From Apostichopus japonicus (taxonomy: Eukaryota; Echinodermata; Holothuroidea; Aspidochirotida; Stichopodidae), in NCBI RefSeq assembly GCF_037975245.1, contig NC_092583.1:1638264-1702263 (forward strand): a DNA stretch of 64,000 nt, written 5' to 3'. The notes under the pieces were generated by a model that was not told where the DNA came from, did not search any database, and was given only the letters and a program-made list of their open reading frames with translations. Made by a program: the position numbers and the translations under genes. Positions 11,879 to 60,634 of this stretch are shown piece after piece (the first letter of the stretch is position 1; each line of letters begins with the position of its first letter).

Positions 11879-11879
11879 G

Positions 11880-27176: not shown

Positions 27177-27197
27177 CGTACGAAATGTATGGCTGAC

Positions 27198-27230
27198 CAT
27201 GGAGCTATAAACTCTGTTTATAGCTCCATG
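27198..27230. repeat. 33-bp micro-hairpin with exact 7-bp flanking repeats
   Basis: Arms CATGGAGCTATAAAC and GTTTATAGCTCCATG pair perfectly around a loop of three bases. GGCTGAC flanks both sides (27191-27197 and 27231-27237). It lies 21 bp right of the F2 element's end. Confidence 0.88.
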
Positions 27231-27239
27231 GGCTGACTA

Positions 27240-28420
27240 ATACTATATACGTTTGAAAGTAATAGTATACTCTTACTGAATTAGCGTCTGCTTTCTTATT
27301 GTTCTTTGTTTTCTTTTCACACGGGGAGGTTGTTTTCTCCTTTTATAATTTTCGCACACGTATCAGCGTTTGCTATACATTCTCTTATACCCCATTATGG
27401 GAGTATATGAACTGGAAAATTTCCAAAAGGATGGAGATCCTCCTGCGTGTGCATGTGCTTGCGGGTCGTGAGCATGAAATGATGGGTTAATGCCTAGAAA
27501 GCCACAGTTTTAGGGTAACATTAACAGCTCATATGTATAACACTGCTACCATTATGTGCATATGTAACACACTTATAGGGCGGTGATCCTGAAAACATAA
27601 CTTCAAAGCTAATACTTGCCCGTTGAGCAATTTGTCTGTGGCTAAATGGATGAAAGGTAGTCTGCATATGCCACAAATTATAGCACGCTATATATAACTG
27701 CCAGAAGTTTACAAACAAACTACCTTTCCGGAGGTCTTTACTCTTTTTTCTCATACTTTCTAAATTAACCACATAAAATGACTGAATGTTAATTTCCTCA
27801 AGGGTGGTAATACAAATACAATATTTGTTGTTTTTTTTTATCAAAGGTGACCATATTTGAATACCTGGTATATTAGGGGCCTAAACAGCAAACCTTTGGA
27901 GCGGGATATACTGGTTTTGTATTGGGGCGAAAATCTAAACAATTGCAAGTAAAAGATTCAAAGTAAAGAACATACTTTACCAAACACGTTTTACGAGGTA
28001 CAAAGTATATATTTATAAATTTGTAGTTAAGACGGTGCACTCTTTACTGCAGGAATGCGACAACTTAATAACGATTTTGCTCTCCCTTTCCTCTCTTATT
28101 CATTGCTGCAAATGTTTCTGTTGCAGCGATAGAAAGCAAGTGTAAAATAAATGACACATGTTGACGCCAGAAATGTGTTCCACGTTCATTTCTATTGTAA
28201 ATTTTCTATTGTAAATAATGTTATTGAACTCTGAATTCAAACATGGAAACGTTTTACAAACATTCACCTCAAAATTAGTGGAACAATGCCACGAAGATTA
28301 ATATATAGAATGAAAAACAACTTGTATATAGGGCCTATTGCTTACCGGCTAAAATTAACAAAAACATAATAACATTAAAATTAAAGTAAACATAGACAAC
28401 GTATACTGCACGCAGCCGCG
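27240..28420. other. intergenic DNA
   Basis: No gene-like ORF; the longest frames (63 and 107 codons) show no domain or signal and no duplicate for comparison. Confidence 0.45.
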
Positions 28421-30440
28421 TACACTATACACACACATATATACATATTATCCGTATTGTGCCACGCTTAGGGAATTGTGCCCACGCTTGGGAAAGTATG
28501 ATTGAAATATATTAGGCTAGTTGTCATAAAAAACTGTTCTAAAATTTAACAATTTGGAAGGCATTACACCATGTACAAACGAGAAGGCCCTATGAGAAAA
28601 ATGCAAGTGAGACAAAAGCCTATACATCATATACTTTCTTATATTCTCTTTCAAACACTCCGACCCCCCCCCCCCCCTCACCCGTTTAATTTTCGAAGGT
28701 AATTACATTGCTACGGGAGAAGTTTGGGTGTCCAGTTAGGTTCAAAATTGATATATGCAACTAATATAGGTATAGAAGGATTAAAGTATGCTGTATTGGC
28801 CCATATATGCCATATATTCCAAAATGGTCACCCCTGGTCAATATTTTTAAACGGTTTATATTACCTCGTTGAAAAAAAAATACCTCACTGGACATTCAGT
28901 TATCTTTTGTGTTCATTAAGATTGTCTGAGAACAATTTGGAGAGCGAAGACCTCCAAGGGAGTATTTTTTGAACACTCCTAGCAATTATTGCTTGCTTAA
29001 TTTGCGGCCAATACAGTCCACAGATACAGTCACAGATACAGACATATGTACGATTAACATATAAACATAGACAACATATGTATAATGTACGCAGCCGCAT
29101 ACACTACACATATACATATTGGTTAACATGCATGTGTGACAGTAACTTTATTGTGCCCACGCTTTGCACTATTAAAGAAGCCTTTATATTACATACTTTC
29201 TTGAATCCTCTTTCCGACCCCGACCCCCCCCCCCCCGGACACATATACATATATACACATATACATATTGGTTAACATGCATGTGTGACAGTAACTTTAT
29301 TGTGCCCACGCTTAGGGGAATTGTGCCCACGCTTGGGAAAGTATGACTGAAATATAGTAGTCTTCACAGAAACTGTTCGAAAATTAAGCGATTGAGAAGG
29401 CATTTAAACCCAATACAAACGAGTAGACCCTTTAGGAACTGCACTATTTAAGAAGCCTATATATTACATACTTTCTTGAATCCTCTTTCCGACCCCCGAC
29501 CCCCCCCCCCCACGACACATATACATATATACACATATACATATTGGTTAACATGCATGTGTGACAGCAACTTTATTGTGCCCACGCTTAGGAGATTTGT
29601 GCCCACGCTTGGGAAAGTATGACTGAAATATAGTAGTCTTCACAGAAACTGTTCGAAAATTAAGCGATTTAGAAAGCATTTAAACCCAATACAACGAGTA
29701 GACCCTTTAGGAACTGCACTATTTAAGAAGCCTATATATTACATACTTTCTTGAATCCTCTTTCCTACCCCCGACCCCCCCCCCCCCACGACACATATAC
29801 ATATATACACATATACATATTGGTTAACATGCATGTGTGACAGCAACTTTATTGTGCCCACGCTTAGGAGATTTGTGCCCACGCTTGGGAAAGTATGACT
29901 GAAATATATTAGTCTTCACAGAAACTGTTCGAAAATTAAGCGATTTAGAAACCATTAAAACCCAATACAAACGAGTAGACCCTTTAGGAACTGCACTATT
30001 TAAGAAGCCTATATTTTACATACTTTCTTGAATCCTCTTTCCGACCCCCGCCCCCCCCCCCCCCCCGCGCCTCTTCATTTATTTTTCGAAGGTGTTGCAT
30101 ACGGGGAAGTTTTGGTCTCCAGTTAGGTTCAAACCTTGTTATATGCAACTACACGTTAAAACTCAATACAAACGAGTAGACCCTTTAGGTACAATTCTAC
30201 ACTAGTATATATTACTATCATACTAAGTATGATTTATTGGTCCCATATATGCTACATAATAAATATGGTCACCTTATGTTAATATTCTTAAACTGTTTTA
30301 TTAACCACCTTGGAGGAAATTTACCTAACTGGGAAATTCAGTCATCTTGTTGTGTGTGTTTATAATGTCAGCGAACAATATGGAGAGTGAACACCTTCAG
30401 GAAAGGACTTTTTTGAAAACTTCCAGCAATTACAGCATGC
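28421..30440. repeat. 276-bp tandem array plus diverged flanking copies
   Basis: GGTTAACATGCATGTGTGAC starts at 29121, 29270, 29546 and 29822 (steps 149, 276, 276). Each unit has TTGTGCCCACGCTTGGGAAA, AACGAGTAGACCC and ends in a C tract of about 12-20. The stretch 28440-28975 and 30080-30470 are an older, diverged pair of the surrounding unit (CCAGTTAGGTTCAAA, then GAGAGCGAAGACCTCC vs GAGAGTGAACACCTTC). No gene. Confidence 0.85.
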
Positions 30441-31080
30441 CGTAATTTGGGGCCATTACATACTATTTTTGAGGAGTACACGTATTTGAACTCGAAGCCC
30501 CTCACCCCACAATCAATTTCCCCCTCCCTAAATCTATTACACCTGATTGACTCTGCGATCAATTTCATATATAGTTTGATGATACCTATACTTATTTTTA
30601 ATTTAACATAATATGTTGATTACATATATCAACTGAAAATTATAGTGGGGGATCATAACGAGGAAGAAACTGTACCCATCAGCTTTAGATTAAAATTGTA
30701 TATGTACGTTTATGAGTACGGAATTTCCGACTGTCGCACTCTAATTTTTCCGACTGTCGCACTCTAATTTTCATAGATTCTTGTTATTTGTGAGTGGCCT
30801 ACAATTTTCGGTCAAACTTGACCTTTAATCAGTCATATTTACCACGTTTTCCTTGTCATATTAAGAAATTGTATCTCGCGATTCTTATACTCCACCATAC
30901 AAAACTTCGTATGATTTTGAATACTCTAAAAAAAAATGCCTAATAAAACTACTGTACAACGTATACAATTAAAACGTTGAATGCTATTCTACGGAAGCTT
31001 AAAAGTGCCATCAACATAAGAAAAACTTTGCCCATAAGGTGAAATTTTTCAGTAAATTGTTAAAATAACAAGATAAAATC
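30441..31080. other. intergenic DNA
   Basis: Only a short direct repeat TTTCCGACTGTCGCACTCTA at about 30725 and 30747. Nothing else recognised. Confidence 0.5.
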
Positions 31081-31119
31081 TTATCAAAAAAAAAACAGAA
31101 AAATATTGGATCGATTAGT

Positions 31120-31365
31120 TGCTTAAACTGAGCAATTGAACAATTTTTGAAAAATGTTTAATTGACAACTTATCATATCTCGTGTATTGGGCATTTTGCT
31201 GCAAATTGTTCAATTGTTCACTTCATTCCATCTGAGCAATTGAACAATTTTCTGCAAAATGTTTAATTGGCAACTTATCGTATCTCGTCAACTCAACATT
31301 TTTCTGCAAAATGTTTAACTGTTCACTTCATTCCAAATGCTCAGTTGGAATGAAGTGAACAATTT
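31120..31365. repeat. GAGCAATTGAACAATTT repeats, partly inverted
   Basis: GAGCAATTGAACAATTTT at 31127 and 31227, CAACTTATC(A/G)TATCTCGT at about 31165 and 31270, TTGTTCACTTCATTCCA at about 31215 and 31320 and inverted at 31346. A diverged repeat of about 100 bp with an inverted end. Confidence 0.75.
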
Positions 31366-31910
31366 AATTTTTTTTCATGTGAATGATAAATAGCCCCCCC
31401 CCCCCCCGCCCCCAAGAAAATAATATTAAGCGCGCTAGGAAAAAGCACTGTATTTTGGGGTAGTTCACTATGTCGTCGAATATAATTTGTTGAAAAAGAA
31501 AAGTTTTCCCCTTTGTTACATTAACATAGCTATTTTAGTTGGTAGTCTATGTAGCCTATAAAGCAGATAACTTATACTCATTGCTTACTCGCTAACCAGA
31601 GTGATTAATAAATTTGTGAAGTGAGGGCGAGTGGTACAAATGTACCGAAAAAAGTTCGGAACAAAAGTGCAGTCGCGAAAGATGGGGTGTCTGACTGACA
31701 CTGACCGTATCGTTGACGAGTAGGGTGTGGGGGGGGGGCGGGTTACAAGGCAGCAGTCGGAATTTTCTGGCTCCAAAACCCATCCAGTTGGAATTTCAGC
31801 CACTACAACTCCCCACCCCCCTCTCAATCATCAGGCCTTAGCTACGTCCCTGTGTACGTAAACGACGTTCATTACTGTTAAGTTTTTACGGGACTTTATA
31901 GTACTAATTA
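31366..31910. other. intergenic DNA with C/G tracts
   Basis: C tract at 31395 and G tract at 31730. The two minus-strand frames here have no recognisable family. Confidence 0.45.
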
Positions 31911-31924
31911 ATACTACGTGCGAC

Positions 31925-31950
31925 CGTGGAGCTCTGTTCATAGCTCCATG
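31925..31950. repeat. 26-bp micro-hairpin with exact 7-bp flanking repeats
   Basis: CGTGGAGCTCTGTTCATAGC followed by TCCATG. Ends are CGTGGAGCT / AGCTCCATG. GTGCGAC flanks both sides (31918-31924 and 31951-31957). Confidence 0.87.
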
Positions 31951-31957
31951 GTGCGAC

Positions 31958-32655
31958 GAAGACTTGTACCCACGCTTATATAGAAATTCTACCCAAGCTT
32001 GGCAAAGTATGACAAGTAAATCGCAAATCCAACACATATATACCGGTGCTATGGCAGAGTGGCGGATAAAGGCGGTGGCGTTTGGAAGCAATGCGGGTTT
32101 CTCCCACATTTGTGGTCGCTTAAGCGTCGTGAAAATAACTGCTGATTATTATTACTATTATAGCATTAAAAAAATGTAGTAGTTTGAAAGATTATTGAAC
32201 TTTCAAGATTTATATATATAGGTTTACTTGAGTATTCACAAATTCCAATCACAATCACGAGTATTCTTCCAATGCTCGCCCCACCCCTTCTTTTTTACGT
32301 CCTCTTCACTCATTATCGATTCATGGACAGAACTTGATAGTAATTTCTGATAAAATCTTCCTCAGTTGCATCCTATATGTAAACTGAATGTTCCGCTGTT
32401 TGCACATATGTCGAAAATGATTTATATCGCTTGAGAAAATAAGCATTATGCAAAAATTGGCATATTCACGTGTGGTGTTTGTAAAAATCACGCACCTATA
32501 TGCAAATATATCATAGCTAAGATTGTCCTGTGTCCGTTATATAATTCCATTAAAGAAATGCATACCTGAGACACGGACGTATTATCCTGTGAGGGTACCG
32601 TAATACATTCATGCTTGAGACACATGCAAGTCTTAAATAAACAGAATAGCAAGTC
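31958..32655. other. intergenic DNA
   Basis: TTGTACCCACGCTTATATAG and CCCAAGCTTGGCAAAGTATG near 31966 echo part of the 276-bp array unit. Nothing else recognised. Confidence 0.5.
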
Positions 32656-32697
32656 CCAAACATATAGACCTTCCTTACCGGTTTCGAACCTCTGGAC

Positions 32698-34331
32698 TAT
32701 GGAACGCCAAAAGGACCACAGTGACATGTACCACTACTAATTTGACATGTACTACTACTAATTCGAAGTGTACTACTACTAATTTGAAGTGTAATACATG
32801 TAAAATGTCGCGTACTACTACTAATTCGAAGTGTACTACATCTAAAATGTCGCATACTACTACTAATTCGAAGTGTAATAATACTAATTTGAAGTGTACT
32901 ACATCTAAAATGTCGCGTACTACTACTAATTCGAAGTGTACTACATCTAAAAAGTCACGTACGACTACTAAATTGGAGAGATGGCGCTATTCACAATCTT
33001 TCCGATACCATGTCATCGAGTTGCGCATCTGCATTAAAATAATGATGAAGAAAACATTCTTCAATACTCTGTTGATTCAAATGTCTATTTTACATTTTAT
33101 ACCTTTAAGGTCTGTGGCAAATATAGAAAATAGCATATAGTTAGGCACAGCTGGGGAATCAAAAGCATTCTTGACATTTCAACGACGGGGAAATTGCTGC
33201 TTGTGAATAATAGTGTGTATAACAATTTTAAGAGTTAAAAACTGGTGTATTATATATGTAAAAAACTCGATGGACATGTCAAGAAAAAATAGAAAACGGC
33301 CCCCAAACGCAAAATGCTGCTTTACATTCAGAAAAGACCGGTGAGGTGCTAATGTTAATGAGCTAAAGTTAGGCTTCCTAGACTTTTTCTATATGCTAGG
33401 CCAGGCTGCGGCTAGGATATAGTGTCTAATTTAAATGATATTCCAAAACTGCTACTTGTTTAAATTATATACAGGTCTAGTACCGTATGCATTTTAGGTG
33501 TTCTACAAATGGCCTGAATATAGGCCTACTATAGTACTAGGTCATGGATTAATTCCGAGCATAACTTAAGAGCCCAAATGTATACGTTACCGTTTAAATT
33601 TAGATTTTGGCACAGTAATGTGTGTATATGCAGAGCTTAGTATGCGTAGAATTAGGAGTATATATGTACGTGTCAGTCTTCCTGAATGTTCCCCTTCTCC
33701 TTGCCTTCATTACTAATACTATAATCACTATTATCTGTGACCATTGGGCATCACAAAAATAAAATCCAGTGGTGGCAAAGCAACAAGTTTTCGAAGCCCC
33801 AGCAGGTGGAACCATCGATCCCCAAGAATGTGCTTAATGTAGCTTCAGTTTTTAACTCTTAAAATTGTTATATACGTTATTATTCACAAGCAGCAATTTC
33901 CCCGTCGTTGAAATGTCAAGAATGCTTTTGATTCCCCAGCTGTGCCAAACTATATGCTATTTTCTATATTTGCCACAGACCTTGAAGGTATAAACTGTAA
34001 AATAGACATTTGAATCAACAGAGTATTAAAGAATATGTTTTCTTCATCATTATTTTAATGCAGATGCGCATCTCGATGACATGGTATCGGAAAGATTGTG
34101 AATAGCGCCATCTCTCCAATTTAGTAGTAGTACGTGACTTTTTAGATGTAGTACACTTCGAATTAGTAGTAGTACGCGACATTTTAGATGTAGTACACTT
34201 CGAATTAGTAGTAGTACGCGACATTTTACATGTATTACACTTCAAATTAGTAGTAGTACACTTCGAATTAGTAGTAGTACATGTCAAATTAGTAGTGGTA
34301 CATGTCACTGTGGTCCTTTTGGCGTTCCATA
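32698..34331. mobile_element. TTCGAA-array inverted repeat (F4) inserted in a SINE
   Basis: Ends TATGGAACGCCAAAAGGACC and its complement are flanked by CTGGAC on both sides (32692-32697, 34332-34337). The unoccupied SINE sequence, with one CTGGAC, is present at 23162-23168 and 34556-34562. Arms 32698-33243 and about 33846-34331 are inverted copies; the left is about 60 bp longer in its repeat part. TT(C/T)GA units start at 32741, 32762, 32783, 32825, 32867 and 32888, all multiples of 21 bp. The centre (33244-33845) is unique apart from 33250-33335, which resembles the end of the TTAA element in gene B's intron. Thr/Lys/Cys-rich ORFs are array translations. Confidence 0.9.
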
Positions 34332-34467
34332 CTGGACATACAATCAGCGTCCATAGCCTATAGTGGTTAGGGTGTCCGCGTACAGAGCGGGAGGCCCGTG
34401 GTTCGAATCCCGGTGGAGGCTGAAAGTTTTTTCACTGTTCTTGATTTTCCAACTCATTACGATTTTC

Positions 34468-34470
<3 letters not shown>
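34332..34470 (+). mobile_element. SINE family S, copy 2, split by F4
   Basis: The 3' half of a SINE whose 5' part lies at 32668-32697. The tRNA-like part (34347-34420) has an extra TA in the A box (CCTATAGTGG), an intact B box and the TTTTTT tract. Confidence 0.85.
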
Positions 34471-34498
<28 letters not shown>

Positions 34499-34503
34499 TA
34501 TAT

Positions 34504-34693
34504 AGGTGACAAACGCCTACAGTGGAATTACGATCTTCCTTACCGGTTTCGAACCTCTGGACATACAATCAGCGTCCATAGCCTAGTGGTTAGGGTGTCC
34601 GCGTACAGAGCGGGAGGCCCGTGGTTCGAATCCCGGTGGAGGCTGAAAGTTTTTTCACTGTTCTTGATTTTCCAACTCATTACGATTTTCATT

Positions 34694-34695
<2 letters not shown>
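34504..34695 (+). mobile_element. SINE family S, copy 3, intact
   Basis: GGTGACAAACGCCTACAGTG to ATTACGATTTTCATTTATAT. tRNA-like part 34572-34643 with intact A and B boxes, anticodon-type loop GTACAGA, and TTTTTT at about 34650. Followed by TA repeats (34696-34758). Confidence 0.8.
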
Positions 34696-34734
<39 letters not shown>

Positions 34735-34759
34735 GATGTTCCATATATATATATATAGT

Positions 34760-35488
34760 AAATAAACATACATAAGTGCCGTAATAAAGGCAAAAATAGA
34801 GCGCCCACATTACAATACGTGGTACACACAGCGAAATCCATGTGCATGTGCCGGATCAAGGGAATGGTTTTATTCTCCAATATAGTTATATATATGAAAC
34901 GAATTTTCTGAAAATTATTGCAAACTACATCTAGATCAAGTAACGTTAAATACACAAGTGATGTTTAATATGTTGAATGTCAAAAATGGAATGTAGTTAT
35001 ATCATTACGCTGTTGACATGGAACTGAATAAAATAAAAAATTAAATACTGCCGCATTTTGAAGAGTGTCAGACTTTCAAACCTTTTAAAATGATAACTCG
35101 TATTAAATTTGTAGTTGATGTGGGTCTCTGAAAAATATAGCAAGAATGTGTTTGTGATTACTGTCAAAAAGGCGTGATATACTGAATAACATGTAAATAT
35201 CAAATGCTATTGTCACTGTGACACGCTTCACATTGGTTAATTGTTTATTGTAAGATTCCAGCTACTATATGATCACTGAGTCAAAGCATGGTTAAATGAT
35301 CGACAAACTGCTATATTCAGTTTCCTCCGACTTTAACATAAGTTCACGAGATCGTCAACAAGTTTTAGCAGCGGCAGTTCACGTTTCCATACATATTTGA
35401 ATTTAACTGCCTTTTGTTGCTGGACCGTAGAATTCGGAAATATCAATGTTGGATGCTAACTACGGAGCTACAGAAGCGTAGAAAGGAC
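34760..35488. other. intergenic DNA
   Basis: AT-rich, no recognised gene or repeat. Confidence 0.45.
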
Positions 35489-35495
35489 ATTGTAC

Positions 35496-35517
35496 CGTGG
35501 AGGTTTTTACCTCCATG
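35496..35517. repeat. 22-bp micro-hairpin with exact 7-bp flanking repeats
   Basis: Arms CGTGGAGGT / ACCTCCATG around a TTTT loop. ATTGTAC flanks both sides (35489-35495 and 35518-35524). This is the smallest member of the hairpin group. Confidence 0.85.
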
Positions 35518-35529
35518 ATTGTACTAACA

Positions 35530-36570
35530 AATTTATGAACTAGTAGAACGTAATGATAATATAATAATTGCAGTTTCCATGAACTGATATGTAAAAAGAA
35601 TCGCTTTGCGTTGAAGACTTTTCGAAGACAAGACACAAAAAAAAAACTATGGCTTGGAGGATTCACACTGAATACATAGCATCGCACAATTTTTTTTCAC
35701 TTGAAATCCAATCGAGTTTTCCCTTTGCTGTTTGCGCCAAGTTAGCTTCCGAGAACCCGCGACGTTTAAATGAGCATTTACAATAATTAGGGTACTTTAA
35801 TTAGACCTCCTTTAACACTATATTGGGGACCCGATGCAACCATGTGGTGCACCCCACCCACTCGCCCCCCCCCCTCGTCAGGTTCCCCAATGTGTGGTAA
35901 ACTTAACTGTTAATGCAAAGAATCGTTATCCGTTAATTTTAATTGGAAAGTTAGGTGATCGAGTAACACATTGACATCTCATGGATACAACATTTGCCCC
36001 TAAACTGATCCAGAATGGTCGTAGAATTCATCTAATATTACAGATGAGTCATATTTTGGATATTTGTGGATTCTCCTTCTATCCAACTATATGTACCCCC
36101 TCCCAGTTTAGTCCTGAAATAGAAATTAAAATATAATTAGCCGGTTCCTTTGTGATGCCGTTTTTGCTGCTTTAGAAACGGTCGGGTCCAGAATAGCTAT
36201 TTAGAGGATTTATTTAAAAACGGGGATAGTGGTGGGTGGGGGGGGGGGGGCACAAGCCTCGGAACTGGGATATCGAACAATCGGTACTCAATGTCAGGCT
36301 TCAAAAACCTCGGCTTAACTTTGTCGGTCATAGCGGCGCAAATCCATATTTGAGATTTAAGTAATTTTTGCTTAAATTTTGTGCGAAACTTTTTCCAACC
36401 TCCTACCCCATGCCCCCTGCCCCCTTCCCCCTCCCCCCGTTTCAAATGCTCCTCTTACGATTCCCATTGTCCATATCCTTTTTCATAGATTAGTCGAGAT
36501 AGATTTCAACAGTCCGTTTTTTGCTCTGCCGATTTCTCTCAATATGCCGTCAAGTGATATTCGAAGAAGT
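35530..36570. other. intergenic DNA with G/C tracts
   Basis: C tract near 35868, G tract near 36240, C-rich stretch 36420-36440. Nothing gene-like. Confidence 0.45.
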
Positions 36571-36577
36571 ATACTCA

Positions 36578-36763
36578 TATGGCAAGCCATGTGGGACAAA
36601 CACTGCATAATATATCAGCGTAATATTCGTAATTTATACGTGTATTAATTGGAATATATACGCGTATATATTATTAGCCAATCATATGGCCGAAATATAT
36701 ACGCGTATTAATTCGAATATATACACGTATTAATTCGGTGTTTGTCCCACATGGCTTGCCATA
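36578..36763. mobile_element. 186-bp MITE (F3) with exact 6-bp duplication
   Basis: Inverted ends TATGGCAAGCCATGTGGGAC (continuing AAACAC) and GTCCCACATGGCTTGCCATA; TACTCA flanks both sides (36572-36577, 36764-36769). The interior repeats ATATATACGCGTAT-type units, with ACGTGT/ACGCGT/ACACGT starts at 36638, 36660, 36701 and 36723 (22, 41, 22 bp). The terminus TATGGCAAGCC is shared with F1. Confidence 0.92.
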
Positions 36764-36769
36764 TACTCA

Positions 36770-40250: not shown

Positions 40251-40254
40251 GGTC

Positions 40255-40745: not shown

Positions 40746-40750
40746 TCCCG

Positions 40751-42740: not shown

Positions 42741-44380
42741 AGCAAAGAAAACACGAACAACTTTAAGATTTGACGTTACAATTTACAATGTTCTGAATAA
42801 TACAAAGTTAAATATTTAAGAATACAATATACAAAATAATACAAGTAGCAGAGTCAGTTTGATAATTCTGGGAGAGATATCGAATTAAAACCAAGAACTG
42901 AAGACTTTAGAGGCGGATTTGGTGGTTTCGCTATATGATACAATTGGACGAATAACGAACTGGCTTGCAAAGTGGGAGGAGCGACCGTACATGCCAAGAC
43001 CAGTTAAGTCAACTTGACTCCTAGTAAACGTGTTGAGACCAGTTAAACACAGGTATACTCGTAGTGAACTTGTAGAAACTAGTTAAGTCAGCTTGACTCA
43101 AAAAAAAATTGTTTTTTGGCAAAATCCAGTATCATCTTGGAAGCTTTTAGTCAACTTTGCCACAAAATCGCTTCACAAAAGTTGATGGATTTGTAGTTAA
43201 GTTTTTTTTTTGTATTTATCGTCATCAAGCCTTGCAATATGACAGAGTCTACGTTAATCAGTTCTGTTAATTATATGAAGAGAATTGTTTCATGGTATCC
43301 AGATCAAGAAATATTTGATGAAAATTAGAACAAAGCAATTATCAATGTTGAAAAAGGTGACTTAATTGTACCGTGTAGTTATTAATGGTATCATGTGTCA
43401 GATGAAAAAGACATTTCATTATGTTTTGTTATAATATTTCATTTTCATGGTCTGTTTTTTCTTCATCTTCTTCATTTTCTTTGATTATTCTAGCATTTGT
43501 AATTCAGTTATGTTCTCAGATATTAATACAAGGGAAGGATATAAAAACTGATTATAATGGACCGAACGTTTTGGTTACGCTTTCATTAATTTGTTGTGTG
43601 TTGTATCTATGGGCTGGACCCCTCACCACCCCCAACCCCCTCCGCCAAAGAAAATCGCCTCTTGCCCTTCCATAAAGGATCAGTCCCTAAGTAAGTCGAG
43701 CAAAGTTAGAATTTCACGTCTCTCCACCTTTGAAATTTTGCAGGTGCACGTCACTGCGCAAGTCCTGGATGCACACGCGCTTATTTTCCTTCATATTTTG
43801 CCCTATAGGAGTGGTTGTAACTTGTTACTTTCTAACTTAAAGGCATTGAAGACTCGCTCCAAACCGCGTGCGGCCATCTGAAAAAATTAACTTTCCGTTG
43901 CATGCAAGTGAAGTTTTGTTGTAGCTGGACCTGAGATGTCCATCGCTGTATCGTTTGTACACTGTGCTGTGGGTATTGACCGCAGCTGTATGTACTGACA
44001 GTTTACTAGTGTCTAATTACCGACGGTAGCAAGCTGTGTGTGTGTATTTTCTGGGATCGATGGTGGTGTCTAATACTTTTGTTACACCTCATTCGAAACT
44101 AAGTCAGATAACCGGCATTTCTTTTTGCGCTAGTCTTCACACCCTTTAATTAGGCGAACTGCTTCCGTCGCCATTATTCCCATTTTGTATTCATTTTTTT
44201 TTTCTTATCGGTGTCCCTGTCTCTCTTGTTCTGTCATTTTGATATTTTATTTACACAACATTTTGCTCTGAGATTGCTACCAAGAACGCAAGGCGCCATA
44301 AAATAATTAAAATGAAAAAACAAAACAATTATTAACTTATCAGGTTGATAGCTGTTGTGCGATTTGTATATCATTGGTAC
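42741..44380. other. unique sequence between copy A and copy B
   Basis: No counterpart in the window, because copy B runs off the end at the matching place. Two short frames (43421-43675, 43591-43881) show no domain. Nothing else recognised. Confidence 0.5.
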
Positions 44381-46690
44381 TTAAGTATACAACTTACATA
44401 ACTGCAGATTTGTAGGCCCGGCGTCGATGTATGCATGCATGGGATAGTGTAGGCCTACCCTTTGAACTCACATCTTGACATCCGATCCAGTCAACTTTTG
44501 AAACCGTTCTATTTACCATAAGGCTGCAGCTCAATGTATTTGTTACCGTACCTTATGTATTAAAGACACATGGAATCGAGCAAGTGCGCCGATACAAATC
44601 ACTGAAGTGCTGAATCATTCAAATGGATCCATTACATTAGCAAAATGAGTGTTAGATAAACAAAGCAACTCCCCTCCCCCCCCCCCCTCCCCCCGTTTCA
44701 TGTAGGTAACGGTAAATCGTCGAAAAATATCAAGTCGAAAGGAGGATTCAAATGTCGAGATTCAATTGTCGTAAATTTTGAGATTTTTTGCGGTGAAATA
44801 GTAAGTTGATATTTCCGGGGAAAAAATCGATATATACTTTGAGAATAGATTGGCAAATTTGCGACAAACAAAATAGTGAAATATTAACCCAAACAATTGA
44901 AATTGCGACTAAGTAGAAATAATATCACTTTTTCGTTCGAAATTCCTATCTATCTATCTATCTGTCTGTCTGCCTGTCGATTAATTGATAGATTGATTGA
45001 TTCTTATTCCCCATTCCTATTCATATCCCTATTCTTATGTCATTGTAATTATCATTATTAATTAAGCGTTTACTTAGCTACAGCCGGACTGGAGTTGTAT
45101 ACCTCCTGACGTCACACGAAGCTAAATCCGATAGAATAACCTCAATGCGGTTTGCAACGCCGGTAAGCAACTGAATACCCCGATCAGCGCAAAGCTTACA
45201 AGAAAAGCAAATACACCAAATGTTCAGAATACACTGGTACGTGGCGAAAGGTCTGTCGGAAGACATTAGATAAAGCGACCTACCACATTAGCATGAAAGG
45301 TTAGGCTCGCCAATTTATTTTCTATAATAGGCTACATGTTATCCGGTGAGTACACAGTTAAATTCTTATTATTCTAATAAGTAGCCTAACATAAAGACCA
45401 TGTAACATTTCTATCTGTGTTAATGAACTATTATTCAAATATGATGGCGACGGAAGGCTCATAAAAGGAATCCTTTAATCTCAGAATATCACCTCTCTGT
45501 TTGTTTATATATTACTTTGCTAGTTACTTTGACATCATGGTGGTGATTCTGTTTTCTGCTTAAGAAAATTGCAAGGATGTCGGTAAGGCTCTTTTAATAT
45601 TTTGTACAGTTTTACCAAAACATATTTTCAGTTTGATTTATATCCCACATAATATAAATATAAATGGTGAATAGTTAAATTACAAAAGTCAAAAGAATAC
45701 AAAGGATAAGTAAGATGAAAAAGGAGAAAAGAACAAAGAACATTTATATTTCGTCTCCGAGAATCAAACCCACGAAGCTGTAGTTCTTTCGTGTTAATTT
45801 GGCTACAATCTAGTACTATAGGCCTACTGATGCTCAATGCGGTCTGAATAAGGTTACAAGTAGCCTACCTCTAAAATTAACCTCTTTGTTTTTAGTTTAT
45901 CAAAATCTTAAAATTCGGTAACATTGTTACAATATTTAATAGTGTAAAATCATATATGGTATAGTTTAAATGTGTAGGGACACCATTTTTTCCCCCTTCG
46001 TATCAACACTGTCTAAGAGATGATTTTTTTAAATTTTTTATCTTCGTTTTTTTCAATTGGTGTACACCTTTCAGTTAAATTGAAAGCTGTCCAATTAATT
46101 TCTGCTATGATGTGTTAATTAATGTCACACCCAACTCAAACAGCATACTCTGTTAAAAAGGTTGGACCAATTTGTTTACCTATAACATTGGGTACGTTTG
46201 TAAATCCAACCAACTTTGCGTAAATTGTTGCCACAAATCAAGTGTACCGTATAACTGCAGACAATTTCGACCAACTTTCGACCACTTTTTTGGCAACTAA
46301 CTTACTTAAACTGTCGTAATTTTGTTGTTTTTCATTCTTCTTCTTCTGAGTGCAACGGGGTTTTTCCTTTATAAAAATTTATACAATTTTTCGTAGCGTG
46401 TATTAGTTTGAGCTCATCGTTCTAATTATTAAAGACAAGCAACTCCGTATTATGTAGCCGGTGCGCTTTAGTTTACTGCTTTTTAGACATGTATGAAAAA
46501 TGCTTCCTATACGCAATCGCTCCTATACGCAATCGCAGGTTTCCTTTAATCACTGCCTACACGGTAGCCCCCGCCTTCCATCACACCCCGAGATACCCTC
46601 TTCCCGATGTACAAGTTGTGTCCCCTTATGTTGAGGTCATACCGTTGACATCCATGCAAAGTCAAATTATGCAGCATCGGCCGAGTACAC
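44381..46690. repeat. segmental duplication block X, copy B
   Basis: Matches 2851-4878. An extra segment at 44731-45000 ends in a CTAT/CTGT and GATT microsatellite (44948-45002). Homology stops at GGCCGAGT, where a TTAGTCGG-array repeat begins. Confidence 0.85.
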
Positions 46691-47527
46691 TGAAAACTTA
46701 AATTGGTCCACCGACTAACATAACGTTAGTCCATCTGGTGCCTCTCCCGACTAACACAGCCTTAGTCAGTTGATATACCGACTAATTTATTCCTTAGTCA
46801 GTTGGATTTCTTAGTCGGTCATCTTAGTCCGTCAGCTTAGTCGATCAACGATAACTTAGTCGGTAAATGTATATTAGTCAGTTACATTAGTTGGTGACAT
46901 TAGTCGGTCTTTACCGACTAATTTATACCAGCCACCGACTAGTTTATAGCAGGTTTTACATTAGTCAGGATGGTGCCTCTCCCGACTAACCTTTCTTAGT
47001 CGGTATCGACTGACTAGTTGCACTGACTAGAATCACTGAAAGAATTAAACCCGACTAGTTTCACTGACTAGAATCACTGAAAGAAAAGAGAGCAGAAGAA
47101 ACACAAATAATGTGTACGTTGGCAATATTTATTTCTGATAAAACTTCTGATGTCTACAAAAGCTGACTTTCGACAGATGGAGAAAAAATCACTGTAAACA
47201 ATAATTTGAAAATATCATTTTATTCCAACAAAGTTAAGACAAGTTAATGGATCAAACATGAATCGCAAAAGTATAGTGCTGCACAATAATGCAAAGTTGA
47301 ATCTTGGGCAAGAGTTCCTCACGACTTTCGTTTTAAAGTGGTACCCCAAATCGACACCAGTTAAGTCTTCACGAACAAAGAGTGTTTCTCTTAACTACAA
47401 ATGGCCTTCCACTTGTCTTCAGGAAGCCAAAAATCTGCACCATTATTGACCTGTGAACAGAAAATATGATATACGTGTAAGCACAGATACAGATATAGCA
47501 CATGATAGCTCACATTATCATAAACAG
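46688..47527 (+). repeat. 840-bp direct repeat with TTAGTCGG array, left copy
   Basis: Starts TACACTGAAAACTTAAATTG. The first 390 bp are packed with CCGACTAA and TTAGTCGG/TTAGTCAG half-sites in both orientations; the rest is AT-rich (AATGTGTACGTTGGCAATAT...). It matches 49945-50784 at roughly 96% by eye. The 63-codon frame differs between the copies and is not supported as a gene. Confidence 0.88.
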
Positions 47528-47745
47528 GGGCTCTAAGCGGAGCGCCACCATCTTGTCGATGTCTTGGCGTTTTTCTTCTGCTCCCTCCTTTTCTCCCTTT
47601 CTACTTTTCTCTCTTTTGTCTTTTTCTTTTCCCTTCCTTCCTCCTCTTTTCCCCCCTTTTTTCCCCTTTCTTCTCTTTTCTTTTTCTCTCCTCTTTTTCT
47701 TACCCGGGGGCGCACGCCCCAACGCCTCTCCCTGGATACGCGCCT
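47520..47745 (-). repeat. purine-tract dispersed repeat with R1 end
   Basis: Inverse of 20275-20515. Read on the minus strand it starts CAGGCGCGTATCCAGGGAG, has a long A/G tract, and ends AAGATGGTGGCGCTCCGCTT, the R1 end motif. This links the purine-tract repeat to R1. Confidence 0.78.
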
Positions 47746-49944
47746 GAGAGTGTATGTTCAGCTGGCATTCACCAGCCAGCCATGTAGATGATAAATGGGG
47801 CTAGTAGTCCCAATATTGTGATATGTTGTGGGCGGAGGTCATATATTCGTTTGAGTTCACCAGGGGTCAAATTGTGGAAACCATTGTTTATCACAATATT
47901 TTAACAAGGACAGATGTCATATTTAGTATTTTGATGTATCACATTTAGTACAAGAAGCCAGTTTTTGAGGTCAATGGTCATTTCAGGACAGCCTGTGTCA
48001 TTGTGAATTATTGTTTGTCACATCACACTGCTTTTCACTGTATTACTAAGATCAAAATTACATCTAATGATCACCGTTTTATCTTTGTAACCATAACTTT
48101 GAAACAGTTTGAACAATGAAAGGATCTAATTGAAATGGAGTTATATTGTGGGAATTATCGTATACACACAGTCTCTATATAAATTACAAAGCCACTATCG
48201 TTTATGCCAAAGAATCTACCATATGACGAATAGCAGCAACCAATCAAAGCATTGGCTGCATAGGATTTGCTTTCAACAAGAAGATATTCATTGTATGTGT
48301 GGCTAAATGTGTGAGACTGCATTGACTCCTTACATAAGTGCTCATTTTGGACACTCAAAGAGTAAACTTCAGAAATAAGAGATCTGCCAAGCAAGATGAT
48401 ATACCAAATTGGAATTGGTCTTAAGTCCGAGTGCAGAAAGCTGGACTCGAGTACTATAAACGTGTGGGTATTACACATTTCTTTGTGGGTATACTGTACG
48501 GGTGGGATTTACATTAAATACGTGTTTGTTGCCACATTGTTCAGTTCAGTTCAGTGGTGTTGTTATTGTTTGTTGTGTAGGGCAATCAATCTTGTAAACC
48601 TTTATACAACAGACACATCCCTACCTGTGATTCATTGATTAACGGTAAACTGTAACCGTAGGTGCTTTTTTGTTTTTTAAATTATGTGATGCAACTTACC
48701 AGGTAGAAACAATTAAACTCAAGAACACTGTGATACAACAAATTTGAACACATTGTTAGTAACAGATGATGAAGCCACAAATGAAAGTATGAGTTCATGT
48801 ATAAGAATTCAAAATAATAACAATTTTGGAAGCTAGGAAAGTTTTAAAGAAAATGGTTACACATCTCTAAAAGAGTAACGGCGTTCCGTTATAACAATTC
48901 CTCATTCATATAAACACTTAATAGACATGCCTTTTTACCTGCAACTTTAAACCAGGGAGTTGAAAAAAAATAATATTCATCTGTTTGCACAAATCGTAGA
49001 TATAACCCTCAGTGTCAACGTGTAAATTGTGTAAACAAGAGTACAACGACACAGGATTCGGGATTTGAGCAGGTTTCCAATAACATGTTTTCGTACTTTT
49101 TGGAATAATATCTTTCTTTCTTTCTTTTAAAATAACCGCAACTTCTCAAAAGAACCGACATTTCTTCAAATCCTTTGTATAGATGATTGAATTTGTTTCA
49201 AAACAAATAAATGATAACAATCAACCGCAAAGTAGAAGGTTAAAAACACTCCCGTTACAAAGAAGTTTCATGCTGAAAGCAGTCAATGATGCGTTTCCAA
49301 ATTTCCTGTGATTTGTTTGACTAATAGTCCTTACCATTGTCTGCAAACATTTTTGCATTTATCGTGCTCAATAAACACAACGTATTTTGTTAAAATAACT
49401 TATTTATATAGCGCATTATACCGACGGTCTCAATGCAACTAATTGTAACGTTGCTGTCCCGTGTAGAGATAGCAAAGTTTGTATAGTATAGGCTCTCATG
49501 TGTGTGCACTCTCAAATATCACAACGTGTATGGTTGGCCACAGTGGACAAAATTCAGAAATTATGACGACATATCAGGAGGCAGGACTTTTTTATGTCTA
49601 CATAAAATTGATTTGATGTGGACATAAATTCAAATTAATGCTGGCATATATTAAAATAATGCTGGCACCGTACCGTACCAGCTGCGTACTGATAATGCAG
49701 TTGGCACCTTCCTCTTTCAATCTGTTTCAATCTGTGTGAATATTAATGTACATTTAAAGAGTTGTGTCTGTATTGCATGTATGGGCTACCACATTATGTC
49801 AAAATATTCTTGCTTATGAGTTGCACTTCTCTTTATATAGTAAGTACACCTTGTAAAGGGTTTCAGTGCAAACACATGAATTTATTTGTAATCTAAGATA
49901 ATACATATAATATTAATGTCCCCACGCTTCCATAGGCATGAGTT
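47746..49944. other. intergenic DNA between the 840-bp repeats
   Basis: AT-rich; frames of 107 and 80 codons (48155-48478, 48396-48638) lack recognisable domains. No retroelement proteins, which argues against the flanking repeats being LTRs of a coding element. Confidence 0.5.
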
Positions 49945-50784
49945 GTACACTGAAAACTTAAATTGGTTCACCGACTAACATAACGTTAGTCCATCTGGTG
50001 CCTCTCCTGACTAACACAGCCTTAATCAGTTGCTATACCGACTAATTTATTCCTTAGTCAGTTGGATTTCTTAGTCGGTCATCTTAGTCCGTCAGCTTAG
50101 TCGATCAACAATTTCTTAGTCGGTAAATGTATATTAGTCAGTTACATTAGTTGGTGACATTAGTCGGTCTTTACCGACTAATTTATACCAGCCACCGACT
50201 AGTTTATAGCAGGTTTTACATTAGTCAGGATGGTGCCTCTCCCGACTAACCTTTCTTAGTCGGTATCGACTGACTAGTTGCACTGACTAGAATCACTGAA
50301 AGAATTAAACCCGACTAGTTTCACTGACTAGCATCACTGAAAGAAAAGAGAGCAGAAGAAGCACAAATAATGTGTACGTTGGCAGTATTTATTTCTGATA
50401 AAACTTCTGATGTCTACAAAGGCTGACTTTCGACAGATAGAGAAGAAATCACTGTAAACAAAAATCTGAAAATCTGATTTTATTCCAACAAAGTTAAGAC
50501 AAGTTAATGGATCAAACATGAATCGCAAAAGTATAGCACTGCACAATAATGCAAAGTTGAATCTTGGGCAAGGGTTCCTCATGACTTTCGTTTTAAAGTG
50601 GTACCCCAAATCGACACCAGTTAAGTCTTCACGAACAAAAAGTGTTTCTCTTAACTACAAATGGCCTCCCACTTGTCTTCAGGAAGCCAAAATCTGCACC
50701 ATTATTGACCTGTGAACAGAAAATATGATATACGTGTAAGCACAGATACAGATATAGCACATGATAACTCACGTTATCCTAAAC
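49945..50784 (+). repeat. 840-bp direct repeat with TTAGTCGG array, right copy
   Basis: Matches 46688-47527, including the array and the AT-rich 3' part. Divergence is scattered single bases. The flanks show no shared target duplication with the left copy. Confidence 0.88.
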
Positions 50785-51118
50785 ATACATTTACATTAAA
50801 ATTTTATAACATATTGGGAGGTATACATTTAAATCTAGGTCCCTCAAATTATAAGCCAGGAATAGCAGCTTTACCAAATAATTATTAGCTTTGCACAGCA
50901 TAACACCAAGTTATTTTTCAAAGCTTAATAATTATGTTAATCATGTTAATAATGATCCCAATAGACCGGGAGCCCAGAGGGTTCGGTTAGCTGGGAAGGT
51001 AACCAATTGCCTTGTACATCACAATGTTCACAGTGCATTCCTGTATATGAAACCAGACGACTGGCAAACCGGCTGTGGTGGGTGTGGCTGGGAGAGCAAT
51101 TTTAAAGTCACCTGATAG
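50785..51118. other. spacer
   Basis: A short frame at 50891-51115 has no recognisable family. No other feature. Confidence 0.45.
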
Positions 51119-51705
51119 CTAACCTAGATCAGCTTTCATGGTAACCACATCAAAGTAAGTACAATGTGTCAGATATGGCCCCAAGAGCAACAAATGGCTA
51201 TTGCCAGTAATTATTGGTGGTGGGGTACCCCTGCCAGTGATCAATAATTGACCCCTCACGGCTGACCTAGGTCAGCTCATGAGGTAACCACTTGAAACCT
51301 ACTGGAAAATGTTGGTTAGGACTTCAGATACAAGGGATGGGCATTGCCAGTAATTTTTATTGGTGGGGTACCCCTGCCAGTAGACCCCCAAAATGCCCAT
51401 CCCCTCATTGACCTAGGTCAGCTCATAAGGTAACCAGTTGAAACCTACTGGAAAATGATAGGTATTACTTCAAATGTAAGTGATGGGCATTTCCAGTAAT
51501 TTATATTGGTGGGGTACCCCTGCCAGTAGACCCCCAAAATGCCCATCCCCTCATTGACCTAGGTCAGCTCATGAGGTAACCAGTTGAAACCTACTGGAAA
51601 ATGATAGGTATTACTTCAAATGTAAGTGATGGGCATTTCCAGTAATTTATATTGGTGGGGTACCCCTGCCAGTAGACCCCCAAAATGCCCATCCCCTCAT
51701 TGACT
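51119..51705. repeat. 146-bp tandem repeat with TGACCTAGGTCA, 4 units
   Basis: TGACCTAGGTCA occurs at 51263, 51409 and 51555, with a diverged start at 51119 and a truncated end at 51701: steps of 144, 146, 146, 146. Each unit contains GGTGGGGTACCCCTGCCAGT and AATGCCCATCCCCTC. The last two full units are nearly identical. It ends a few bases before block Y resumes. Confidence 0.93.
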
Positions 51706-51716
51706 TAGCTGTGTTT

Positions 51717-52833
51717 GTTCTTTATGCTGGATAGACTATAACCTGAATGATGTTTACCTGCTTTTGTTGATATATTGTCTATAAAGGCTTGTTTTGTGTA
51801 TACTAAGCACATTAGTCGGTTTGCCCCAAGATGTAACAGATAACTCACTTATGACAGTGTGAAAACTCCGTTGACTATATCTATGTGCCGCACAGCTTTC
51901 ATCTTATTCCAATGTTCAAAGATAACGACTAGGTGTATGTTTATTTGTACGTGGGTGAGTGTGCGTATGTGTGTAGTTGCGTGGCTTTAAATGGAATTTT
52001 AAGGAATTAAATCATGGTTTACAAGCAGATTAAGCGACACATAAAAATCTTGAGGTCTCTATTTGTTTGTTCTGTATACTTCTACGTCGTTATCTAAGCC
52101 TAGAAAACATTAATTAACAGGAGAAATTCATATAGGCTGTTATTACATTACAAATTATTAATGAAGCACTGGAACTGAAAGATAATGCATTGTTAGGTAA
52201 ATTCAAAATACCAATTGTGTGAACCTTTAAAGGACAAATGAACAACTAGATTATAAAAGAAGAAGAATAAAAAAAATGTTGACAGTGCTGCATGGAGTAA
52301 AGAGGGGGCGGGGCCACCTGGTCATCTGCTATGTGCCCTTACAGCTGGACCCAAACGTAGTTCGACATTAAAAGCCTTAAGCCTTAAAAGTCTTAAAAGT
52401 TAAGTAATATATGATATTTACCGGTCGTACTACGAATATATATGAGTCGCATCGCGATTTGAATGTACCTAAGATGATTTTCATATTTATGTGATATATT
52501 AATAGCTCTAACGGTAATTGGTATATATGTGTCGTTTACCTTATTTATTTTGTACAAAATAGATCATACTGACTCTACACATAGTAAAGGTTTTTTTTTA
52601 TCTATTCCTTTGATTATGGTTTATCAAGTAAAATTAATAAATCAATATTCCATAACAGAGATATACATATAAACATGTATGCGTGTGTGTGTGTGTTTTG
52701 TATGTCGCACATACCAAATTTGGTAAAGATCGTCGGTGAGGAAGCTTGACAGAATTGCTGTAAACTATTTGAAATATTCAAATATAATCGGTTCTATATA
52801 TTTCGAAATGTTTCCTTCTAGTATCTTGCTAAC
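51717..52833 (+). other. 5' flank of gene B, duplicated block Y
   Basis: Matches 6852-8191 apart from a deletion relative to A. GTTCT at 51717-51721 is the empty target of the solo LTR found in copy A. Confidence 0.65.
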
Positions 52834-55800
52834 ATGGTTCCGCAGACGAAGACAATATGTTTACAGTCCAAACGGATAATCGTTGTTATCTCTTTGTCCC
52901 TGTATGTAATCGTTGCGATCTTAGGGCTACTACACCAAGTCAACTTACCTCGCTTGAAGCCACTTTTCAAATCGAATGTAAGGTAAGTTAATGGTTTTGC
53001 CTCGATTTCAAGTTTTCGGTCTGTGAAAAGTCAGCTTCTGGTAAAACTTTTAGCTTTACTACTATAAAGGCCCCCCCTCCCCCTCTCAATCAATAAGTCT
53101 TAAAGCAGCATTTTGCGTTGGGTCGCTTTTTTCCACTTTTTTAACATGTGCATCGATTTTTTTACATGTATCAATCATAAAACAGCAATCTAAGATACCA
53201 TCCAAGTTTCACCCTGCCAAGAGCGTTAATTAGCGAGTAATTAACGATTTATGTCGATAAATGAGAAGAGTGTCCTCGACAAATTTCACAGTTAAAATTA
53301 ATTGCATACAATTCCGCCAAACCCACTAGTTTGAATTCAACCAATCAGAGATGCAGGTTTAGTTATGAGCCGTTGCTAAATATAGATTCAAGACTTCGCG
53401 TTGGTTGTACCAGGGAGTTGTTATGCAACTCCCTGGTACAACTGCCATATAGACTGTACACAAATCAAGCGTGGTGTTATATTACGTATCTGTCAATGAC
53501 GTTCGTAGTGTTTAAATATTCATATTATGGGCGAGGTTTATTGGGTTCCCAACGGAAAATATCTTGGAGAACAACAAAGTTGAAAGTTGCAAATTTTTCG
53601 ACTTTCATGCCACCATTTGAAGTAAAATATAAATAGATTAGCTAGTTATGTATGTCATTATGGCAAAGTATAGAATCAGTGAGGTTGAGAAAAATCATAG
53701 AAAAGGACGCAAAATGCTGCTTTAAAGCAGCATTTTGCAGCGACATGAAAGTCGAAAAATTTGCAACTTTCAACTTTGTTGTTCTCCAAGATATTTTCCG
53801 TTGGGAACCCAATAAACCTCGCCCATAATATGAATATTTAAACACTACGAACGTCATTGACAGATAAGTAATATAACACCACGCTTGATTTGTGTACAGT
53901 CTATATGGCAGTTGTACCAGGCAGTTGCATAACAACTCCCTGGTTGTACCAACGCAAAGTCTTGAATCTATTTTTAGCAACGGCTCATAACTAAACTTGC
54001 ATCTCTGATTGGTTGAATTCAAACTAGTGGGTTTGGGAACTGAATGCGATTAATTTTGTATGTGGAATACTCGCCAATTAACGTTTTTGGCACGGAAAAA
54101 CTTGGCTAATATCTTAATTTGCTGTTTTGTGATTTGATGTAAAAAGTATGTAAAAAACTCGATGGACATGTCAAAAAAGTAGAAAACGGCGACCAAACGC
54201 AAAATGCTCATGAATAAACATACTGTTCACTGATTGGTGGAATTCAAACTAGTGGATTTGGAGATATGAAAACTTTGTCGAGGACACTTTTACTCGTTAT
54301 CGACATAAATCGTTAATTACTCGCTAATTAACGCTCTTGGCAGGGTGAAACTTGGATGGTATCTTAGTTTGCTGTTTTATGATTGATACATCTAAAACAA
54401 ATCGATGCACATGTTAAAAAGGTGGAAAAAGGCGACCCAACGCAAAATGCTGCTTTAAAGTTGCAAGAATTATTGATGACTTCTTCGACACATTCGGACA
54501 TGATATTATCCTTATGTTTGGAATTAAGGGTGAGAATACTATACCGCCCTAACCACAAGTCATGTTCAAAGTTTGTCCCCGTTTCAGGAAAGCTCAAACA
54601 TGCCCGCATGTCATACAATGGAGCTATAAACTCTTTATTGCTCCATGGTCATACAGGCATACCGTATCTTCAGCGGGTGCCAGTTAACATTGGTCAATAT
54701 GCTCACGTTTCTGAAGGAAATCTTTGCAGATTTACTCAACAACTCAAAACGACCTCTTAAATTCCCGATTGCCCGTAAATGAACACATGTGAAGACATGC
54801 TTTTAGAAAATCATTACTCGAGATAGGAATACACTAGAGAGCTTCCCATAGCTTTATTTTGCACATAAGACAGCCTGCATCAATAAACAACCTTTTTCCG
54901 AGGGGGTCACATGGACTTTTTTTTTGTCTTCAAAGGTTTGAACCAGGGACCTCAGGTACTGCAGACGTGTACTCTCCCGTTCTGCCACCTCACCGCTCCA
55001 ATCTGACAATAAAGGAATTAACCCCTGTTCGACCTCGCAAGAGGTCCTACGGGGGAGATTATAGATACATAGACTTGTCATGTCATTTAATGGACCTGAC
55101 AGAGAATACCCAAATCTGAGGACACTGATTGGTCAATTTTTGTGTGCCACAGTGTTGAGGCACAGAAGCTATGCCTTATGTGTGCTAGTTTTTATAATTC
55201 TTTTTTTCATTTTAAAGACTTTTAGGTTCTCCCTAATAATGAAGAAAAAAGAATTAATTGCTGTCTCATCTCAAATTTATCAGGGATTCCATGAAGGAAT
55301 TCTCTATGCATCTATCCTCTGCTTGTTTTTTTTTTAGGAAAAGAGATGCATACTATAACATATAAGAATAGCCGCTTGTCTCTCTTCTTTATTCAACTCA
55401 TATCCACAGGTAATTTATATTGCCAACATTAAGATATGAGTAGAACAAAAGGTTTGTCATATCAGTATTGCAAAAATATGGGACAAAATCATGGAAAAAT
55501 TGCTGTAAATGTACCATCATGTTTCATAGTGTGACCCATATATGTTCTACTGTGGTAAAATCATGGTACAATTATGGTAAATTTACCATAGTATAATTGC
55601 ACCGTATAGTTTTACCCTATTTTTACTGTGGTTAATCATGGCACAATTGTAGGAATTTCACCTATGTAGTTTATGTACCATATTAACTTACCCTACTTTT
55701 ACTACAGAAATATCATGGTAAAACTATGGTAAATTTACCATAGTAAATGTACCACACTTTTACCCTACTTTTACCGCGGTAATATAATGGTAAAACTGCG

Positions 55801-58437: not shown

Positions 58438-58440
58438 ATA

Positions 58441-60052: not shown

Positions 60053-60089
60053 GTCCACCACGTAAAATGTGATAACGTATAGTTAATGC

Positions 60090-60592: not shown

Positions 60593-60634
<42 letters not shown>

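Follow-up and report, generated by a model that had tools for sequence, protein, structure and literature searches.

MITEs (miniature inverted-repeat transposable elements) are short sequences with inverted repeats and target duplications but no genes, and the element 1360 is a member of the P superfamily. The P transposase cleaves at the end of its element and also 17 nt within the terminal repeat, which leaves 3' extensions of 17 nt (PMC7776569), and end-joined excisions of P in Drosophila consist of the 8-bp target duplication, at most 17 nt of each repeat with microhomologies or insertions, and the duplication again (PMC2895639). Duplications of 7 bp are described for Galileo, whose GTATTAC lies inside a longer palindrome and of which three copies have 8 bp (PMC4168063), and for 1360, with GTTNAAC (PMC3276498). 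In rice, a comparison of two genomes recovered 94 putative excisions of DNA transposons, most with deletions or filler (PMC4423477). Here we analyse a 64,000-nt window of the holothurian Apostichopus japonicus (NC_092583.1, positions 1,638,264 to 1,702,263; C23:1638264-1702263 of the 671.6-Mb assembly of 35 contigs), in which a sequence-only reading had noticed five tiny hairpins with exact 7-bp direct flanks and had taken them for some of the smallest mobile units. We are highly confident that these hairpins are instead heritable excision footprints of cut-and-paste transposons of the P superfamily.

The hairpins share the traits of MITEs, but they lack an interior and their joins vary from site to site. 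Their composition is that of the footprints left by P in Drosophila, namely duplication, a limited number of repeat nucleotides, microhomology or templated insertion, and duplication, and the Drosophila P repeat likewise begins with CATG (PMC2895639). Those footprints, however, retain at most 17 nt of each repeat between 8-bp duplications and come from experiments with one element (PMC2895639), whereas the scars described here are natural, number in the thousands, and retain at most 18 or 19 nt of each repeat between 7-bp duplications. With Galileo and 1360 they share palindromic 7-bp duplications of the form GT..AC, and the rare 8-bp duplication of Galileo has a counterpart at one site; both elements are nevertheless described as inserted elements, and the word 'footprint' is absent from the main text on Galileo (PMC4168063). 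The rice inventory resembles ours in treating genome-wide excision sites with end-joining signatures, but it needed two genomes (PMC4423477), whereas the present scars are readable from one.

Duplicated heptamers and empty sites

All five hairpins were present between direct heptamers that agree at seven of seven positions, as was the decayed paralogue of one of them (Table 1). The view that each consists of two joined terminal repeats held, and the repeat templates used were C (CATGGAGCTATAAACAGA), G (CATGGAGGTAAAAACAGA), B (CAGGGAGTTGTTATGGAA, of a second hairpin family) and E (CATGGAGCTATAAACGAGAAGGAGAAAAAGCTCCTT); the 53918 hairpin fits family B either as 10+15 nt with one mismatch or as 9+18 nt with two. 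Of the several end types that had been listed, AATGGAG, CGTGGAG and CAGGCAG read as point mutants, the common ends being CATGGAG and CAGGGAG. The five sites are real, but their supposed independence is not complete: the 53918 hairpin is no independent insertion here, in that other copies of the interspersed repeat containing it carry the same or a near-identical scar, and seven loci on C1 have both the flanks and the scar of this repeat. Because the join at 54617 is common to both copies of a segmental duplication, that scar must have formed before the duplication and been inherited.

An exhaustive hairpin scan of the window was swamped by simple repeats. A scan for hairpins of 16-40 bp, with tandem repeats masked and one mismatch tolerated in the outer 8 bp, found identical flanks of 5, 6, 7, 8 and 9 bp in 5, 5, 6, 0 and 0 cases, and the six with 7-bp flanks were the five already claimed plus one at 1683-1703; a second scan, based on exact 5-bp arms, recovered 13, 2 and 1 hairpins with flanks of 5, 6 and 7 bp, against means of 3.27, 1.0 and 0.3 in shuffled sequence. 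The statistical excess inside the window alone is modest, and the strong evidence is genome-wide. A genome scan of the kind that had been suggested returned 1841 forward and 1823 reverse matches to CRTGGAG(N4-28)CTCCATG, the first family, against 53 and 60 for a control in which the pattern was read backwards, and the second family, sought on either strand as CAGGGAGTTG(N3-25)CAACTCCCTG, gave 1155 matches over both strands and none in the control. Equally without control matches were the 17-mer CATGGAGSTAWAAACAG of families C and G (619+629 matches), the family-B 18-mer (851+839) and the terminal 18-mer of family E (46 exact copies). All such counts are of copies, not of events.

Loci, labelled L with a number, were fetched with flanks around individual matches, the flanked samples being the first distinct sites among the matches listed, 40 of the first family and 20 of the second. 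Clustering by flank similarity left 38, 18, 17 and 16 clusters from fetched sets of 40, 20, 20 and 20 sites. Identical heptamers flanked 34 of the 60 hairpins (25 of 40 and 9 of 20), whereas in the first family shifted windows matched at all seven positions in only 1 of 4000 cases and heptamers from different sites in 0.38%, the latter because of a shared target motif. Another 13 first-family sites agreed at six of seven positions, and none of the 40 had exact direct flanks of 4, 5, 6 or 8-12 bp. Besides its nine exact 7-bp duplications the second family had one of 8 bp (L129), and it showed the same GT/AC tendency. Base counts of the first-family heptamers give the palindromic target TTNGTNNNACNAA; the target preference that had been suspected from a shared AC is real, but AC is only half of a palindromic GTNNNAC. 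At L007, L124 and L133 the left and right heptamers are reverse complements of one another (GTCAGAC/GTCTGAC, GTTGTAC/GTACAAC), which lengthens the pairing of the hairpin and possibly reflects template-switch correction of a quasi-palindrome.

Empty sites were sought by joining the flanks without the scar and with one heptamer (66 and 44 queries, some of the same site) and comparing them with the fetched sequence. The joined point was crossed by 18 and 20 alignments, and those not named in Table 1 fall in the locus from which the query was taken or in a further locus of that site. Scar-free paralogues were found for five scars, and every empty copy contained one heptamer, so that something must have been inserted and have duplicated 7 bp. 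The heptamers are thus target-site duplications, as proposed, and the observation named beforehand as fatal to that proposal, empty sites already carrying the doubled heptamer, did not appear in the paralogues of these five scars.

Parental elements and the extent of retained repeat

Longer elements with such ends, which the sequence-only reading had recommended looking for, exist as a full-length element E and as pairs of family-C ends. Element E (C17:20911684-20921137, 9454 bp) has termini that are identical at 29 of the first 30 nt, with GTATGCC directly outside each end as a 7-bp duplication. Its main frame, of 635 aa, matches the P-type RNase H domain PF21787 (expectation value 3e-27) and the solved structure of the Drosophila P transposase, 6p5a (1.2e-10), and the GTP-binding insertion domain PF21788 was recognized in two separate frames downstream (7.3e-7 at 30 bits, above the cut-off, and 7.8e-4 at 20.3 bits, below it). 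With an RNase H-like domain, a GTP-binding insertion domain, and inverted repeats accompanied by a duplication in the 7-8 bp range, E fits the P superfamily. Its frame lies at one of 45 matches to PF21787 in this genome, whereas a search of 14 control genomes gave none. The main frame of E terminates within an 18+9 nt family-E scar that the element carries, and a second copy starts at C16:30038745 after a different flank, although the right end of this copy was not found.

The N-terminal part of the P-type frame of E (L075:1748-3655) also matches Pfam RAG1_imp_bd over residues 39-110 (expectation value 1.4e-9). The loci L079 and L113 (C3, C17) were considered as donors and rejected, their left boundary sequence being that of another P-type family; they are copies of about 98% identity with a 628-codon frame, and the sequence that they share starts near L079 position 110. 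Near the other P-type transposase hits, the loci fetched contained no repeat pair with a duplication, whether of CATGGAG or of another sequence, and the ends may lie beyond them.

Family C is represented by an intact end at L112:1189 (C2:10959289), where the repeat continues as AGGAGAAAAA and the following 130 bp align with the right end of E. The 23-mer CATGGAGCTATAAACAGAAGGAG, which is the C repeat followed by AGGAG, occurs at 48 exact places (20+28; none in the control), and family-C ends form ten inward-facing pairs within 20 kb, two of them spanning 11.2 and 16.1 kb and eight spanning 4450-5099 bp, with recurring lengths of 4450-4459 bp (four pairs) and 4782-4802 bp (three pairs). Two of these ends were read; they have subterminal sequence in common and differ in their flanks (GTTGAAT, GTCCAAC). 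Three further candidates for element end pairs, C2:23817227/23818269, C1:19417520/19417957 and C1:4962001/4967451, proved to be separate scars. Two intact C ends, C17:16770475 (+) and C17:17781523 (-), face PF21787 hits at C17:16777857 and C17:17767414, 7.4 and 13.7 kb away, and are possible autonomous elements of family C.

Comparison with the intact repeats indicates how much of each end a scar retains. The family-E 18-mer continued into intact nt 19-24 in 2 of 46 copies, a count from a search with the exact 24-mer, which passes over ends that have diverged, the left end of E among them. At 20 further E sites (22 rows) the match stopped at nt 18 in 6 rows, at nt 19 in 13 and at nt 20 in 3, and never went beyond nt 20; the three rows at nt 20 are about what a chance A would produce, and one site is a 19+19 join. 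Four of the six rows at nt 18 are copies of one scar, found in four copies of an interspersed repeat (L143, L146, L155, L157), and this scar was evidently amplified by another element. Family-C scars end by nt 18, whereas the intact C repeat runs on as AGGAG. The 17-mer of families C and G gave 5 intact ends among 100 matches listed, and there was none among the 30 loci, representing 29 places on C1, that were extracted; the heptamer recurred within 35 nt in 19 of these 30 rows, and the other 11, which lacked it within 60 nt, had no partner end with a duplication within the locus. Twenty family-B copies outside the hairpin listing had varied continuations, with the heptamer again within 38 nt in 12, and one-sided scars occur. 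Among the matches listed, the longest joins were of 34 bp in family B and 38 bp in the first family, where the patterns permitted 45 and 42 bp. Because joins were compared by means of 18-nt templates, an 18-nt ceiling is built into that comparison, and the ceiling is argued here from the intact E and C repeats, the one-sided copies and the longest listed joins.

The joins themselves are diverse, with 35 of 49 distinct in the first family and 22 of 50 in the second. The two repeats overlap by at least 1 nt in 25 of 49 and 24 of 50 joins, respectively, and among joins free of insertions the fraction sharing at least 1 nt (25 of 29 and 24 of 34) compares with 24-40% under random blunt truncation.

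A proposed path from insertion to scar

These patterns would arise from a short series of events. First, as the flanking sequences attest, an element inserted at a palindromic target and duplicated 7 bp. Its transposase would later cut the two strands at different places, one at the end of the element and the other within the repeat, at a depth of 18 nt in families C, G and B and of 19 nt in family E, so that each flank would keep a single-stranded 3' tail of that length. End joining would then close the tails, with trimming or short insertions and often where 1-2 nt were shared, as the joins suggest. Two such tails are inverted repeats, and joining them would give a hairpin that, apart from any insertion, is no longer than about 36-38 bp and has a heptamer on either side. 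The two commonest family-B joins are a 28-mer and a 25-mer, as would be expected if the 3'-terminal AA of one tail paired with a TT of the other, at nt 11-12 for the 28-mer and at nt 8-9 for the 25-mer. Once formed, scars are passed on to descendants and are carried along when the segment around them is duplicated or a repeat that contains them multiplies. Families G and B would be P-type as well, judging from the length of the duplication, the target, the cut distance and the form of the hairpin.

If the hairpins were themselves mobile, at a length of 22-33 bp and mobilized in trans by a transposase able to recognize the joined ends, they would also be expected to create 7-bp duplications and single-heptamer empty sites, and some identical hairpins do occur at unrelated sites. 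The sequence-only reading had favoured mobility of the hairpins, but we consider it very improbable. The joins are too diverse for one fixed unit present at many unrelated sites, and one-sided scars and full-length elements with these ends exist; in addition, the match to family E stops at nt 18-20, and mostly at nt 19, even though the repeat continues, and excision of P in Drosophila gives the same products. A P-type complex would also hardly be able to pair ends only about 20 bp apart.

That the hairpins are MITEs whose interior was lost by internal deletion after insertion is extremely unlikely. Internal deletion is common in DNA transposons and would likewise leave two ends between duplications, but it should reach random depths, whereas the retained part reaches nt 18-20 in family E and goes no further than nt 18 in family C, although both intact repeats continue; moreover, at none of the 29 C/G places on C1 did a partner end with a duplication lie further off within the locus. 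Just as implausible is programmed excision during development by a domesticated P-type transposase, resembling the removal of internal eliminated sequences (IES) in ciliates and displayed in the assembly as somatic scars, for although intact ends are far rarer than scars and a number of open P-type frames, 628-789 codons long, survive, the 8627/54617 scar is common to a diverged segmental duplication and others are common to repeat copies, so that at least these are inherited and old.

Several observations weigh against the interpretation as P-type excision footprints. The position of the cut was read from excision products. The first-family sites L013 and L044 have no duplication (their heptamers agree at 1 and 3 of 7 positions), the family-B sites L118, L122 and L125 agree at 5, 3 and 3 of 7, and two family-B sites have exact flanks of 4 bp, which is chance-like. 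Some joins recur (the family-B 28-mer makes up 15 of 50), as a mobile hairpin would also yield, and this recurrence is in part due to copying inside other repeats. The THAP DNA-binding domain is typical of P transposases, and it was not seen in the main frame of E or in the 7 downstream and 10 upstream pieces scanned. None of the 45 PF21787 places falls inside any of the eight C pairs of 4.4-5.1 kb, which are for this reason probably non-autonomous, and an intact element was found for neither family G nor family B. Against these stand the features by which an excision footprint is recognized: a flanking duplication that is single at the empty site, ends that stop at an internal cut (in families E and C), and variable junctions.

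Surroundings and implications

The window has few long frames and many tandem repeats, as eukaryotic sequence does, and its sulfotransferase frames would point to an animal. Segments 2852-12079 and 44380-61557 form a segmental duplication of about 87-98% identity in pieces, which includes galactose-3-O-sulfotransferase frames at 8930-10117 and 57059-58069. Three tRNA-Cys-like genes occupy 23178-23252, 34346-34422 and 34571-34645, and 98% identity between 23107-23327 and 34500-34720 indicates a duplicated or repeated unit around part of them. Another hairpin, CAGGGAGGT..ACCTCCCTG at 26061-26088, has no direct heptamers and is possibly the decayed scar of yet another repeat family.

Table 1. Positions of window scars, scar-free copies and paired family-C ends (window positions count from its first nucleotide)
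Feature	Position	Details
GGCTGAC + 33-bp hairpin (27198-27230) + GGCTGAC	27191..27237	repeat C, left 15 + right 18 nt, blunt, 0 mismatches
GTGCGAC + 26-bp hairpin (31925-31950) + GTGCGAC	31918..31957	repeat C, 9+18 nt, 1 nt shared, 2 mismatches
ATTGTAC + 22-bp hairpin (35496-35517) + ATTGTAC	35489..35524	repeat G, 9+15 nt, 2 nt shared, 1 mismatch
GTCATAC + 31-bp hairpin (54617-54647) + GTCATAC	54610..54654	repeat C, 15+17 nt, 1 nt shared, 3 mismatches; within segmental duplication
Paralogue of 54617 scar, hairpin 8627-8657	8620..8664	decayed flanks GTCATAA / GTCGTAC; same 15+17 C join, 2 mismatches
GTTGTAC + 25-bp hairpin (53918-53942) + GTTGTAC	53911..53949	family-B scar inside interspersed repeat
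Stretch of ~1.35 kb absent from paralogous segment	53106..54454	contains 53918 scar
Scar-free copy of repeat bearing family-B scar at L169, L175	43913..43994	one heptamer, ATCTCAG
Empty copy for scar L029/L095	~190 bp off in same locus	GTTTTAC; GTTTGAC twice at scar
Empty copy for scar L018	L111	CTTTGAG; GTTTGAG/GTTAGAG at scar
Empty copy for scar L120/L121	L020	CTCACAG; match just 28 nt
Empty copies for scar L169/L175	L098, L091, L102/L103, L168, window 43913-43994	ATCTCAG; ATTTCAG in L102, L168
Empty copy for scar L080	L072	CTTCCAC
Family-C pair	C4:14243832-14248633	
Family-C pair	C9:20686368-20691149	
Family-C pair	C10:16650306-16654762	
Family-C pair	C11:17651538-17655996	
Family-C pair	C11:17662117-17666575	
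Family-C pair	C13:4548567-4553364	
Family-C pair	C14:27587587-27592685	
Family-C pair	C15:23648873-23653322	

The principle of the excision footprint is already known; what is new is the scale, thousands of natural scars archived in one genome in which intact parents are few, together with a cut that would lie 18-19 nt inside the repeat. We found no genome-wide archive of P footprints in the literature searched, which is no proof of its absence. What a P-type scar keeps of its two ends, up to 18-19 nt each, suffices to name the parent family, to date an insertion through the duplication and to read a repair event. In annotation, such hairpins should be labelled neither tiny mobile elements nor regulatory hairpins. 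The archive offers thousands of natural end-joining junctions at what would be long 3' tails of defined length; junctions of this class have until now been studied at engineered breaks in Drosophila. Compared with Drosophila P, the implied cut would be 1-2 nt deeper and the duplication is shorter by 1 bp, and this constrains models of the P transposase complex.

A tentative and rather doubtful extension of these results is that several P-type families have mostly removed themselves, most insertions having been excised in the germline and end-joined with few elements left, as might be suggested by how seldom an end is intact (in family E, 2 of 46; in C and G, 5 of 100 among the matches listed). 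If so, the P transposase would be either biased toward excision or tamed by the host, with cuts greatly outnumbering restorations of the donor site, and the genome would keep a datable log of transposon jumps and of end joining in the germline.

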